Source: a virus
Direction: 5' to 3' (one strand)
IMG/VR virus record: IMGVR_UViG_3300050014_000823
Span: 1-64,000 of that record
Length of the DNA: 64,000 nt
The notes beneath the pieces were generated by a model, which saw only the letters and a list, made by a program, of their open reading frames with translations, made no database searches and was not told where the DNA came from. This document shows, one piece after another, positions 1,380-63,063 of the stretch (position 1 is its first letter; the number at the start of each line of letters is the position of its first letter). Both the position numbers and the translations under genes were made by a program.

Positions 1380-1452
1380 GCTTCCGTGACTGAATGGTTA
1401 AGGTGTCAGACTCTAAATCTGATTTGTGCAGGTTCGATTCCTGTCGGAAGTA
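1380..1452 (+). tRNA. tRNA with CUA anticodon (amber suppressor)
   Basis: A full cloverleaf can be drawn. The acceptor is GCTTCCG with CGGAAGT (first pair G-U). The D-arm contains GG. The anticodon stem is TCAGA/TCTGA around the loop CTCTAAA, which gives anticodon CTA. The variable loop is five bases and the T-arm is GCAGG-TTCGATT-CCTGT, with discriminator A. CCA is not encoded. A CUA anticodon reads UAG stop codons. The anticodon arm resembles that of the classical supF tRNA. The amino acid it carries cannot be read from sequence. The next gene contains an in-frame TAG at codon 3. Confidence 0.92.
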
Positions 1453-1514
1453 CAAAAATAATTGATAATTTGCTTGGAGATTAAAAATATTGTAGTAATT
1501 TTGCTCGTCATACA

Positions 1515-1523
1515 GTATTTATA
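1515..1523 (+). promoter_or_regulatory. GTATTTATA motif, putative late promoter
   Basis: An exact copy of the second recurrent promoter-like motif lies 36 bases upstream of the peptidyl-tRNA hydrolase ATG. Confidence 0.5.
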
Positions 1524-1559
1524 TATCTACGACAATTATTAACAATTAAATTTACGATT

Positions 1560-1910
1560 ATGAAGTAGGTTAAATTAGTAACAGTAACAAGAAAAGACCT
1601 GGATGCAGGTTACCAATTAGCGCAGACTATACACAGTAGTAGTCGATTTGCGTATCATTATCCCGAACTACATCGGGAATGGATTGAAAAATCCGAATAT
1701 GTTGTATCACTTTCCGTGGACAACGAAGAATCCCTCAATGACCTTTATAACAAATTAAAAAGCAATGGTGCTATTGTTGTGGCTTTTCATGAGCCAGACA
1801 TACAGGACCAGTTGACTTCTATTTGCTATTATGGTACGCCAGTAATGCGTAAGCATACGCAGAAGTTAGACTTAGCACTCAAAGAAGTTGAAGTCGCAAC
1901 TAAAAATTAA
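1560..1910 (+). CDS. PTH2-family peptidyl-tRNA hydrolase with in-frame TAG at codon 3
   Basis: The product would release tRNA from peptidyl-tRNAs that drop off ribosomes. The frame reads Met-Lys-TAG and then a PTH2-like sequence: KLVTVTRKDL, an AQ..H segment, FHEPDIQDQLTSI and a C-terminal LDLAL. After the TAG no ATG, GTG or TTG occurs until GTG at 1716, which would delete the conserved N-terminal half including the RKDL and AQ..H regions. Making the whole protein therefore appears to require initiation at 1560 and reading through TAG, presumably by the CUA tRNA encoded just upstream. An alternative is a non-canonical start after the TAG. The family assignment is from motif memory. The readthrough is inferred. 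Confidence 0.8.
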
Positions 1911-1932: not shown

Positions 1933-1968
1933 ATGAAGCCATACTTATAGATTATCCGACCCCCATAA
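1933..1968 (+). other. mini-ORF with internal TAG
   Basis: ATG AAG CCA TAC TTA is followed by TAG and, five codons later, by TAA. The leader (AATTAAATTTAAG before the ATG) is very like that of the peptidyl-tRNA hydrolase gene. It may be a minigene or regulatory leader peptide, or chance. Confidence 0.25.
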
Positions 1969-5523: not shown

Positions 5524-5558
5524 AACCGTCATTTGTGAGTATTTATAAATGACGGTTA
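5524..5558 (+). terminator. hairpin terminator with promoter motif in its loop
   Basis: The stem AACCGTCATTT / AAATGACGGTT encloses a loop that contains GTATTTATA. A T/A-rich tract follows. Confidence 0.7.
5539..5547 (+). promoter_or_regulatory. GTATTTATA motif, putative late promoter
   Basis: An exact motif copy lies in the loop of the hairpin at 5524-5558, 30 bases upstream of the gene at 5578. Confidence 0.55.
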
Positions 5559-5577
5559 TTATATATAAAGCAAAATC

Positions 5578-6066
5578 ATGGGAAATATTTTTGAAGACAT
5601 AGTTCAGGACGTTGAGGTAAAGCCAAGTAAATCAAAACTTGTACTTAAATGGGTTGTTAGAATAGCGATACTGCTAATTTGTGGTGCATTTGTATTTGGT
5701 CAACTCAAAATAAAGAGTATGAACAAAGTAAATACTTTTGAAAAATCACTACAAGAAAATACTGAAGCAATTAAAGATTTAAACAAAAAGACAGAAGAGG
5801 GTTTTAAGGCGGTTAATGGTAGAATAGATAAGGCATATGATGATGGAAACAAGGTGTTTAACGATTGGACCATATTCAACAAAGACCAACTTAAAATGGT
5901 TATAGACTACGGGCAGACAAATAAAGAAATGTTGAAAAGAATGCTTGATTTAAATGTTACAGAAAAAACCAAATCTGTTGAAAATCAGGTTGAACAAGCA
6001 AAAAAGGACACAAGTACTTACAATTCAAGAATTATTGTAAAGCCAGTTATTAATCCAAAGAAATAA
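5578..6066 (+). CDS. membrane-anchored coiled-coil protein, 162 aa
   Basis: A single transmembrane helix at about residues 24-44 follows a short Lys-rich cytoplasmic start. The rest is a long polar helix with heptad-like spacing (about 50-150). This is the layout of spanin-like or envelope-anchored phage proteins, but no family is recognised. It is preceded by its own putative late promoter. Confidence 0.75.
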   Translation: MGNIFEDIVQDVEVKPSKSKLVLKWVVRIAILLICGAFVFGQLKIKSMNKVNTFEKSLQENTEAIKDLNKKTEEGFKAVNGRIDKAYDDGNKVFNDWTIFNKDQLKMVIDYGQTNKEMLKRMLDLNVTEKTKSVENQVEQAKKDTSTYNSRIIVKPVINPKK

Positions 6067-6070
6067 TTTT

Positions 6071-6397
6071 ATGCCAGTTACACCGAGAGAGTATAGTAAG
6101 GAAACATTTTTAACTTTCTTACATAAGAATAATGTTTCCGATAGTATTGTGAATAAATTTATGCAGTTGCCGGAAAAGGTTACAAAAAGAGGTAAAGAAT
6201 TTAAATTGTTCATATCGTCAACATGGTACGATACTGGTAAGACATATTATAACTTCGAACTTAATTATTACTCAGAAGAACTTGTCGAGTATTTATTTAC
6301 CTATAAAGTATTTGACGATGTGGAGAGAAGTATTAATTTTTTGCTTTGTGAATTAATAAATAAACACTATATTGCAAAACCAGAACACTGTAAGTAA
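6071..6397 (+). CDS. hypothetical protein, 108 aa
   Basis: No family is recognised. It is rich in Tyr and Phe and looks like a small globular protein. Its stop codon overlaps the start of the phosphoesterase gene by one base, so the two are probably translated together. Confidence 0.7.
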   Translation: MPVTPREYSKETFLTFLHKNNVSDSIVNKFMQLPEKVTKRGKEFKLFISSTWYDTGKTYYNFELNYYSEELVEYLFTYKVFDDVERSINFLLCELINKHYIAKPEHCK

Positions 6398-7779: not shown

Positions 7780-8103
7780 ATGAATATCAGCGAATTATTC
7801 GAAAAATTACAAGACGACATTTCCGAAGAACTTAATGGAGAATTAATATTAGAGGGTAATTGTATTATCTGGTCCTATGATTTGGACCGTGACGGTGCAA
7901 CACAAGATTTAGAGATTAGTGATGACGATGATGTTGAGTTTGACTTTGCATCAGCAACAAGTCCAGAAGAATTACTACAACAAGGATACGATGAGGATTT
8001 AATTGTAATTGAAGGTTGTATAGCACAGTTAGATGATTTTGCAGAATGGTCATATTCTGACCCAGAAATAGCAGACACCATAATTTCTTTTAAAATATTC
8101 TAA
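7780..8103 (+). CDS. acidic hypothetical protein, 107 aa
   Basis: Very acidic, with a run of Asp around residues 46-52, and almost no basic residues. This could be a DNA mimic or a small structural protein. The ATG at 7780 is preferred to an upstream TTG because the sequence before it looks non-coding. An ECF-type promoter follows the stop. Confidence 0.7.
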   Translation: MNISELFEKLQDDISEELNGELILEGNCIIWSYDLDRDGATQDLEISDDDDVEFDFASATSPEELLQQGYDEDLIVIEGCIAQLDDFAEWSYSDPEIADTIISFKIF

Positions 8104-60653: not shown

Positions 60654-61234
60654 TTTAATCTTCTGTTAATTTCATAAGTAAGATATGCAGTTCCACTTCC
60701 GATTAATGCTCCTGCGAGTACATCTGTAGGATAATGCACACCTAAGTCCATTCGGGAATATGCAACAGTACCTGCGTAGAAATAAGCTGGTGCAATGACA
60801 TACCATTTAGGATATTGTAAACTCAATGATGTTGCTAACATAAAGGAAGTTGAAGTGTGTCCCGAAGGAAAAGACGGGTCATTACACAGACTTCCAGATT
60901 TGTTTACAATGATGCCGGGATATGTGGTAAATGGACGTTTGCGCTTAACTAAGTATTTTAATCCTGCAGTAATACCTAAGTTAATAATTGTTCCTGTTGC
61001 CAATACACCTGCATTCCGTAATAGTTTATCATCATGATTTGCAAGTCCGAAAATTGCCATACCAACTGGTACACCTGTAATCACATACATATCAGAGTTA
61101 GACATAAACCTGTAAAACCCATCAGAAGGTTGTACTTGTGGTGAGTTGATTGAATGAAGTATACGAAAGTCTATATTCTGACTAAATAATGAAATTGGTA
61201 GAAAAAGTAATAATAGTAGAATAAGATTTTTCAC
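60638..61234 (-). CDS. PAP2-family phosphatase, membrane, 198 aa
   Basis: A signal-like N-terminus (residues 1-18) and the three PAP2 motifs are present: KYLVKRKRPF, FPSGHTS, and YSRMDLGVHYPTDV. Such enzymes dephosphorylate lipid phosphates such as undecaprenyl pyrophosphate or phosphatidic acid at the membrane. In a phage it may remodel lipid A or the lipid carrier to prevent superinfection or aid lysis. It overlaps the methyltransferase gene by four bases. Confidence 0.88.
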   Translation of the reverse strand: MKNLILLLLLFLPISLFSQNIDFRILHSINSPQVQPSDGFYRFMSNSDMYVITGVPVGMAIFGLANHDDKLLRNAGVLATGTIINLGITAGLKYLVKRKRPFTTYPGIIVNKSGSLCNDPSFPSGHTSTSFMLATSLSLQYPKWYVIAPAYFYAGTVAYSRMDLGVHYPTDVLAGALIGSGTAYLTYEINRRLKWQQH

Positions 61235-63063
61235 AACATATCTATTTTGTTAATTGTTTCGAATATTACTTGTGCGACTTGCGGGACGATTGCGTTTCCA
61301 AGTGCGGTATTTCTACCAGCGTCCAATTTTCGGGATATCCCATTAAATACTCCGTGAATTCGGGATATTGCTTCATACCAATGAAGTCCAAAAGGGTCTC
61401 CAGATAGCTGAGTGCTATGTTGTGTCCCTTCCTCTTGGCTCTTGTCGGGTACTTCTCCCAACTGCCTTCCCGTGGTGTCGGAATTAAGTTCCACTTTGGC
61501 ACGTCCGATAATCCAAACCCTCTCTCGAATGTGGTATGCTCCGACTGCACAAGCCGGCAAACCAATCGTGAGTGTTTCGTAACCTTCAGTTTCCAATTGA
61601 AGCATAATCTGTTCGTAGGCATTACCATCGTCTGTTGTAAGGAGTCCAGAAACATTCTCTGCCACAAACCATCGGGGTTTGCATTCCCGTATAACTCTGA
61701 TATAATCGTCCCAGAGATATCTTTTGTCTTCTTTGCCGAGCATTTTTCCTGCTTTACTGAAAGGTTGGCAGTTGTGGACTGCAAGTCCGTTTGCTGTATA
61801 GGTGTTGTCATCTTCAATCTCTAAATTATATACCGTCTCATTTTTTGAGACTACTGTTATTTTTTTAAACAGACACCACACATAACCATTTTCATAAAAT
61901 CCATAACGTTTAGAATTTTTATGTAGTCTAAGATGATACTGTCTTCTTTCATTTACTGTTCGACCTTCAATTATGCAAATTCTTTTTGGTTTTGCTGTTC
62001 CAAGACTAACAGGTACTTTATATACGTTTCGTGCAACCCTTGTCATATCTAATGCAAGTTGTCTGCTTACTGTTGTTACTGATGTTAATCCGTCCTTTTC
62101 ATAACCATCAGCATCCTGCCAACCATCAAAAACGGCTTTTTGTTTTTCATTTGACAATTCAAACACTAATTGGGTTAAATGCTTTCCATGCGCATACATA
62201 CCAAACTGTATCATAAACTCATATAATTCTTGATTAGTGATATGAAATTTAGTACATGTTCTTTCGACTACCTTTGCCGAACTATAACCAGCATTTACTA
62301 TATATTTTTCAAGGTTATCTGCATCATCATTTGATGTGCAAATTATTACTCGATGATTATACGAATTCTTTCTACTATTTGGTTTATTTTTATCGGGTTT
62401 TCTTTTAGAATTATTAGTCCAACCATCACCAAGATATCGTCCAACCATGTACCAAAACTCAATAGAATGGCTATCGTTGTCGTTTGGTGTGTCGAGAACA
62501 TATCCGACATAATCACCCCTTTTTAAATTTTTTGCTTCGACAAAATATGGGTCAGTAAAAAATCTGTCATAACTTCTTCTTTCACGATTAAATTTATGAT
62601 ATTGACTTCTTACATAAAATGGATGCTCTGCAGTGGTTTCTAATGCATCTGGTAATCCTTGTGCTCTGACACTATAAATTTCATTGGCTTCCCGTTTCAT
62701 TAACGACAAGACTTTCTTATAGTTACCAGTATGTGTTAAAACTGAATCTTCTAATGACACTTCATTTATTTTAACATATCCTCTTTTAGTGGCAACCAAA
62801 GTATTTTCAGTAAAACAGGGGACACCGCCTGTGATGATATCAATTCTGTTTTTCCACTGAGAAAAATCGGTTGTTGTAATGTCTTCATAAGTAATACTGT
62901 TTGGGAAGTGCGCTTTCAGCACCTGTAGGCAGAATGGTTTTATCTCACAATGAAATTCGTTGGACCAACCAACTCTTTCAGCAGCCAAATCAAAGCCGCC
63001 AATACCGCTAAAAAGAGAGCCATGTTTTAACCTATTCTTTAAGTCCAAGTTGTTGTGGGTCAT
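61231..63063 (-). CDS. DNA cytosine-5 methyltransferase interrupted by an intein, 610 aa
   Basis: The exteins form a C5-methyltransferase: motif I HGSLFSGIGGFDLA (residues 14-27), motif IV P-C with the catalytic Cys, motif VI AENVSG, motif VIII HIRERVW and motif X GNAIVPQVAQ. The intein (residues 83-431) begins with Cys and ends with His-Asn just before Cys432, which is both the +1 splicing residue and the catalytic Cys. The spliced enzyme would have about 261 residues. It overlaps the upstream HNH gene by 32 bases. Confidence 0.9.
   Translation of the reverse strand: MTHNNLDLKNRLKHGSLFSGIGGFDLAAERVGWSNEFHCEIKPFCLQVLKAHFPNSITYEDITTTDFSQWKNRIDIITGGVPCFTENTLVATKRGYVKINEVSLEDSVLTHTGNYKKVLSLMKREANEIYSVRAQGLPDALETTAEHPFYVRSQYHKFNRERRSYDRFFTDPYFVEAKNLKRGDYVGYVLDTPNDNDSHSIEFWYMVGRYLGDGWTNNSKRKPDKNKPNSRKNSYNHRVIICTSNDDADNLEKYIVNAGYSSAKVVERTCTKFHITNQELYEFMIQFGMYAHGKHLTQLVFELSNEKQKAVFDGWQDADGYEKDGLTSVTTVSRQLALDMTRVARNVYKVPVSLGTAKPKRICIIEGRTVNERRQYHLRLHKNSKRYGFYENGYVWCLFKKITVVSKNETVYNLEIEDDNTYTANGLAVHNCQPFSKAGKMLGKEDKRYLWDDYIRVIRECKPRWFVAENVSGLLTTDDGNAYEQIMLQLETEGYETLTIGLPACAVGAYHIRERVWIIGRAKVELNSDTTGRQLGEVPDKSQEEGTQHSTQLSGDPFGLHWYEAISRIHGVFNGISRKLDAGRNTALGNAIVPQVAQVIFETINKIDML
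61771..62817 (-). mobile_element. intein with LAGLIDADG homing endonuclease
   Basis: The N-terminal splicing block starts CFTENTLVATKRG and a TAEHPFYV block B follows. Two LAGLIDADG-type helices are seen as FWYMVGRYLGDG and VFDGWQDADG. The C-terminal block is YNLEIEDDNTYTANGLAVHN. Its length of about 349 residues fits a full homing intein. Confidence 0.9.

Follow-up and report, generated by a model that had tools for sequence, protein, structure and literature searches.

How is a gene expressed when its third codon is a stop codon, and what does the tRNA gene lying just in front of it, with an anticodon that matches this stop codon, have to do with its expression? The question is raised by the beginning of the window, i.e. 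the whole stretch of DNA that was analysed, which covers 64 kb from the beginning of a virus record of 299,144 bases.

The tRNA gene and the PTH2-like gene

The following features of the locus were identified:
1380..1453, + strand: predicted amber-suppressor tRNA gene (ARAGORN; Rfam RF00005, 62.9 bits; alignment with 22 other phage CTA tRNAs)
1413-1415, + strand: anticodon CTA of this tRNA (ARAGORN)
1454..1559, + strand: spacer of 106 nt between the tRNA and PTH2 genes (promoter and terminator scan)
1548..1562, + strand: start context AAATTTACGATTATG, common to the starts at 1933 and 2079 (13 in the window, 6.7 expected)
1560..1910, + strand: PTH2-like gene, 116 aa if TAG is read as a residue (Pfam PF01981; PHROG 1866; AlphaFold2; Foldseek)
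1566..1568, + strand: in-frame TAG at codon 3, the candidate gate (conserved in 48 of 50 homologues)
1569..1571, + strand: GTT behind the TAG, a purine and then T, conserved 3' context (36-locus comparison)
1933..1968, + strand: short ORF, ATG AAG CCA TAC TTA TAG ATT ATC CGA CCC CCA TAA

The tRNA at 1380-1453 was the single tRNA called in the window by ARAGORN, and its score with the Rfam tRNA model was the highest Rfam score in the genome. It has a short variable arm and CCA is not encoded. ARAGORN and Rfam agree with the first-pass annotation, which had placed a tRNA with the anticodon CUA directly upstream of a PTH2-like ORF. Judged by its fold and anticodon the tRNA would be an amber suppressor, whose charging and activity in the host are predicted. 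The name "tRNA-Pyl" given by ARAGORN is derived merely from the anticodon and we rejected it as an identity. No terminator was found on the + strand of the spacer and its promoter-like sites were not above chance; in the region 1100-2700 there were 10 such sites, with 7.7 expected, and terminator-like sites occurred exclusively on the minus strand. These scans make co-transcription of the tRNA with the PTH2 gene likely.

The ORF begins with ATG (1560), AAG and TAG, which are followed by 113 open codons up to a TAA, and the reading frame is identical before and after the TAG. The next ATG is located 93 codons downstream, and with the standard code the first start is a GTG at 1716, within the domain. 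The sequence is thus as described earlier, an ORF that runs on behind its TAG uninterrupted and without another early start. When TAG was taken as a residue, residues 5-78 of the protein matched the Pfam PTH2 profile (1.3e-5, 25.8 bits, above the curated cut-off of 23), with a score far under the stricter NCBIfam equivalog cut-offs. A match from residue 5 bears out the proposal that the conserved N-terminus lies behind the TAG. The AlphaFold2 model (mean pLDDT 91.8) has the PTH2 fold, and its best Foldseek matches were archaeal and human Pth2 with a TM-score of about 0.7-0.76. In this model, residues 5-11 form the first strand, so a start within the domain would break the fold. Among the homologues described below, H25, E78-P79 and T86 are invariant and Q22 and D80 nearly invariant. 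The profile and the model together indicate a PTH2-like protein, with hydrolase activity as a prediction only.

Upstream of ATG 1560 we noticed the pattern AAATTTA, 5-7 bases, ATG, which is the same at the next two starts, 1933 and 2079. The short ORF that begins at 1933 contains a second in-frame TAG and shows the pattern MK..(stop)I..RPP(stop), with a Pro-Pro-stop end. It was found nowhere but in the window and in L016 (about 933-969), in both cases with an inverted-repeat-like sequence behind it; the conserved downstream sequence CGACCCCCATAATNGTGTG was likewise found, besides the window, in L016 alone. This ORF may lie outside the tRNA-PTH2 unit.

The early TAG in homologous genes

Homologues were collected by tblastn of phage records and by IMG/VR scans, which yielded 50 phage homologues. 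Clustered by protein identity, they form 32 groups at 90% and 14 groups at 60%. A scan of genome contigs gave no relatives. The homologues come from the huge metagenomic phages LR756504, LR745206, LR756501, LR756502 and LR756500, from the Tenacibaculum phage pT24, from mycobacteriophages and from many uncultured contigs. An in-frame TAG was present at codon 2-8 in 48 of the 50, with 0-6 codons between the start and the TAG, and neither TAA nor TGA was found at this position in any of them, despite TAG being the rarest terminator in the examined part of the genome (26 of 289 ORFs). The same early TAG, which the first-pass annotation had suggested looking for in related phages, is therefore widespread. 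The N-termini that precede the TAG are mostly short (M, MK, MT, MN, MS, MNN, MKN, MTH and MKH), with longer ones (MKNT, MKDT, MKQH, MKNNH and MKKPFYY) and a single V in Myrna. The distance between the TAG and the conserved strand ranges from 0 to 13 residues, with the TAG remaining at codon 2-8, which indicates that the TAG is tied to the translation start and not to the protein or its domain.

We also looked for starts behind the TAG. Outside the mycobacteriophages we counted 44 TAG loci, none of which offers an ATG, GTG or TTG from the TAG to the KLxVxTRxDL strand. A start behind the TAG was rejected for these loci; homologues beginning with a normal ATG behind the TAG, which would have spoken against the first-pass annotation, did not appear. 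Mycobacteriophages are the sole homologues with a later start available, a GTG directly behind the TAG, and their database entries begin at that GTG. A sigma-70-type promoter scan of their upstream region found nothing, and in our reading the ATG-TAG of these phages may be a leaderless start. In pT24, the annotated PTH2 CDS begins 135 nt behind the ATG that precedes the TAG, an example of how current annotations shorten or miss this gene.

The surroundings of the TAG are conserved as well. Of 36 loci, 35 have a purine directly behind it (+4) and all 36 have T as the next base (+5), so that the following codon is always NTN (ATT, 21; GTA, 6; GTT, 3; GTG, 3; and ATA, ATC and CTT). A purine at +4 favours amber suppression. 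Between the window and L016, which are 84% identical, codons 2 and 4 carry synonymous changes (AAG/AAA and GTT/GTA) and the TAG is unchanged. A sequencing error, a pseudogene or chance could have been considered for a single genome, where one change from CAG to TAG would suffice, but the TAG is present in 48 of 50 loci and is kept amid synonymous changes, which refutes this explanation, and the probability left to it is negligible.

Linkage to CUA tRNA genes

Linkage was counted using one representative per 90% cluster (n = 32). In 12 clusters a CUA tRNA is found on the same strand, at most 200 nt upstream (34-192 nt); in 8 more it lies within 1.5 kb and in 2 elsewhere in the locus; in the fetched locus of the other 10, no CUA tRNA was called. 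Among these 10, L028 has one far off in its genome, and a two-pattern search detected none in LR756504 or the L037 contig. In two more of the 10, near 507378 of LR745206 and 609697 of LR756502, we observed divergent CUA tRNA-like sequences with an enlarged D-arm region and compensatory acceptor pairs; their acceptor arms are complementary and they were called by neither ARAGORN nor Rfam. We read them as putative CUA tRNA-like genes.

The bodies of the phage CUA tRNAs are very diverse, the constant parts being the tRNA core and the anticodon alone. An assignment of the isotype via the nearest isoacceptors was abandoned, as the answers differed between phages and none was consistent. The linkage has persisted while the tRNA changed or was replaced, so it seems to be the reading of UAG, rather than a given amino acid, that is kept. 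The PTH2 gene of L020 contains a second TAG at a position occupied by E, D or Q in several homologues, where insertion of Gln would fit.

Exceptions among the PTH2 genes

The two PTH2 genes without an early TAG belong to L024 (LR745208) and L066. A hidden TGA or TAA gate that would match the TCA and TTA tRNAs of L066 and L024 was looked for and is absent. The sister subfamily around L065 is mixed, with L065 itself having the early TAG. PTH2 in L133 and L135 (about 5548-6280) lies directly behind the terminal TAG of an upstream ORF, which is about 150 codons long, and shares its frame, with no start between the two; as a side reading, PTH2 might here be a read-through extension of that ORF. The codons behind the TAG are AGT and AAA. 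Behind its TAG, L134 has TTG ATG; in L129, L130 and L132 a CUA tRNA is situated just downstream and the early TAG is absent. The PTH2 of phage XacN1 was rejected as a member, having a canonical N-terminus without TAG, and that of Aeromonas phage AS-zj is T4-like and has no early TAG.

A second copy of PTH2 with an early TAG was seen in L042 (7169-7969). It is cut after about 29 codons and runs on into what appears to be a homing-endonuclease-type domain; behind it, at 7974, there is an intact copy that also has the TAG.

Stop codons elsewhere in the genomes

To see how far early stops occur in other genes, 45 stretches (732 kb) were scanned for an ATG followed by at most 8 codons, a stop and at least 80 open codons with no early start. 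The scan gave 33 cases with TAG, 14 with TGA and 10 with TAA. PTH2 accounted for 23 of the 33 (one being the interrupted copy) and the other 10 were background; no second recurrent early-TAG family was found in the 732 kb, PTH2 alone recurring.

These counts bear on a genome-wide recoding with code 15, in which TAG would encode Gln and be at this place by coincidence. Code-15 phages exist, and the second TAG of L020 at its E/D/Q position would agree with such a code. However, TAG serves as a stop and is rare within genes, opening it hardly alters the coding fraction of this genome and of most relatives, and dense in-frame TAG was not found in other core genes. We therefore rejected whole-genome recoding as very improbable. 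The code-15 phages (Lak, crAss-like) resemble the present ones in that the phage encodes a CUA tRNA, has in-frame TAG codons and infects a host that presumably uses the standard code, but there TAG is found in many genes and here essentially in one, near its start.

Expression of the PTH2 gene

We hold with good confidence that expression of the PTH2 gene is gated by the amber codon and that the tRNA belongs to the same unit. PTH2 would probably be made just when a UAG-reading tRNA works, in this phage and in dozens of diverse large phages. The switch had been proposed in the first-pass annotation: its core, an enzyme that depends on UAG read-through and on a switch with the nearby tRNA, is strongly supported by the comparison (TAG in 48 of 50, no later start outside the mycobacteriophages). 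Whether the linked tRNA is the reader is made less certain by the 10 of 32 clusters without a called CUA tRNA, though some of their genomes have one elsewhere. That read-through takes place, and that the tRNA of the window is the reader, we infer.

Ribosomes would begin at ATG 1560 and reach the UAG after two codons. If RF1 wins there, a dipeptide would be released; if the charged phage suppressor tRNA wins, a residue would be inserted and the hydrolase made. Through this competition the output of PTH2 would report charged suppressor tRNA over RF1 activity. With the tRNA just upstream on the same strand, one transcript would supply both the tRNA and the mRNA, giving a coherent feed-forward AND gate that would not leak before the tRNA has built up and would then respond in proportion to suppression. 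A leak dampener of the same design has been built in E. coli and is functional (PMC7969014). Its likeness lies in the suppressor tRNA and amber codon combined in one gene for leak-free AND gating; it differs in being engineered, whereas the phage unit is natural and conserved and targets a translation-quality enzyme. As for the purpose of the gate, we can only speculate; most likely peptidyl-tRNA recycling would be kept in step with suppression, matching the drop-off and stalling that arise from suppression and contested UAG codons. Alternatively, PTH2 could possibly strip the suppressor tRNA, forming a negative loop.

The amber gate is favoured by the exclusive use of the rarest terminator at the early position, the purine at +4, the linkage to CUA tRNAs in spite of their diverse bodies and the arrangement in L133 and L135. 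Against it count the clusters without a called CUA tRNA, L129, L130 and L132 with the tRNA and no early TAG, L024 and L066, and the invariant T at +5, which read-through alone does not explain. The T is accounted for by the main rival, in which ribosomes would terminate at the UAG and re-initiate on the AUU/GUA/GUG-like codon next to it, with the ATG-TAG mini-ORF as a leader: the NTN codons behind the TAG are near-cognates of AUG, and the mycobacteriophages have a GTG right there. Re-initiation, however, would work as well with TAA or TGA, whereas the early stop is always TAG; GTT, GTA and CTT, which make up 10 of the 36 codons, are not recognised start codons, L133 and L135 have AGT and AAA instead, and the linked CUA tRNA is left unexplained. 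We consider this rival unlikely.

The linkage, with its many tRNA bodies, also argues against a sensor of RF1 only, in which host near-cognate tRNAs would read the UAG if RF1 is scarce and the phage tRNA would be incidental. Such a design would resemble the way in which prfB senses RF2 and would suit the genomes in which no CUA tRNA was detected; we think it quite unlikely. The first-pass annotation had further speculated on an autoregulatory loop of the lambda bar kind, where peptidyl-tRNA drop-off from the ATG-AAG-TAG minigene is sensed by the hydrolase and regulates it. The ORFs before the TAG are indeed very short (1-7 codons), as in the bar minigenes, and the product is a homologue of peptidyl-tRNA hydrolase. 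Unlike bar, the phage frame runs on into a full enzyme and the length of the ORF is not fixed; the TAG lies anywhere from codon 2 to codon 8 and the second codon may be K, T, N or S, so no specific dipeptide minigene is conserved, and there is no evident route from the level of peptidyl-tRNA to UAG read-through. A loop of this kind is improbable.

Release factor-like genes near PTH2

The prfB gene for RF2 is autoregulated by a +1 frameshift at CUU UGA C. Like prfB, the PTH2 gene has an early in-frame stop that would tie its expression to termination efficiency; unlike prfB, it has no frame change, with no +1 shift at the TAG, the codon sensed would be UAG and the product is not a release factor. 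In many relatives, a gene for an RF1-like GGQ protein is located about 1-4 kb upstream of PTH2; it was not detected in the record of the window. These genes are interrupted in two ways, which were examined at the sequence level:
L037, 5757-6429: RF1-like gene, CTT TAG C split
L039, 4308-4984: RF1-like gene, CTT TAG C split
L049, 5358-6033: RF1-like gene, CTT TAG C split
L057, 2897-3572: RF1-like gene, CTT TAG C split
L060, 3761-4436: RF1-like gene, CTT TAG C split
L064, 5546-6221: RF1-like gene, CTT TAG C split
L036, 6069-6743: RF1-like gene, in-frame TGA
L041, 5360-6034: RF1-like gene, in-frame TGA
L042, 5208-5873: RF1-like gene, in-frame TGA
L050, 5081-5755: RF1-like gene, in-frame TGA
L052, 5983-6657: RF1-like gene, in-frame TGA
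L053, 3413-4087: RF1-like gene, in-frame TGA
L140, L141 and L142: RF1-like gene, in-frame TGA

In one group the gene (PPT motif, GGQ) is split at CTT TAG C and the remainder is in the +1 frame. The site is the UAG mirror of the prfB site, and it looks like a programmed +1 frameshift that would sense UAG; a 2016 review called the RF1 counterpart, with UAG, of the prfB-type site unknown (PMC5009743). In the other group there are two in-frame TGA codons at conserved places (one in L141), the frame continues, and the best NCBIfam match is release factor 1.

Tentatively, these genes could belong together in a phage module for UAG homeostasis, made up of the CUA suppressor tRNA and the UAG-gated PTH2, to which many relatives would add an RF1-like factor under the control of the CUU-UAG-C +1 shift or of in-frame UGA; we regard this as possible, somewhat short of an even chance. 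If it is true, the output of each part would depend on stop-codon decoding, and the phage would sense how termination and suppression are balanced in the cell that it infects, and set this balance.

A lone tRNA-Cys (GCA) is regularly found behind PTH2 (L036, L037, L039, L041, L042, L049 and L053), in phages whose RF gene has an in-frame UGA or the shift site. We also noticed tmRNA genes upstream in L042, L055, L056 and L057.

Relation to published work

Many standard-code phages carry amber suppressor tRNAs without a known target. The authors of the XacN1 study sought read-through genes for its suppressor tRNA and found none (PMC5852040), and in zeta crAss phages the purpose of "non-functioning" suppressor tRNAs was asked (PMC12386605). 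The PTH2 of jumbo phages, which is of the same family, was proposed to recycle peptidyl-tRNA in ribosome rescue, and that jumbo-phage overview mentions neither a TAG nor a suppressor tRNA (PMC7824862). In the open-access literature, a scope outside which most subscription papers and all preprints lie, our searches turned up neither a TAG in phage PTH2 nor a dedicated suppressor target. If the amber gate is correct, PTH2 would be the first dedicated target of phage suppressor tRNAs that hitherto seemed useless, and the unit would be a natural counterpart of the synthetic feed-forward circuit. A single, deeply conserved target makes the question of what such tRNAs are for directly testable, also in the culturable mycobacteriophages and pT24.

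Other genes of the window

At 61231-63063 on the minus strand, the window contains a gene for a C-5 cytosine DNA methylase with matches to Hint and intein-splicing domains within it, so the gene is probably interrupted by an intein. At the extreme end of the contig (6-326, + strand), there is, as judged by eye, an apparent C-terminal part of a TnpB/OrfB-type protein with a zinc ribbon.
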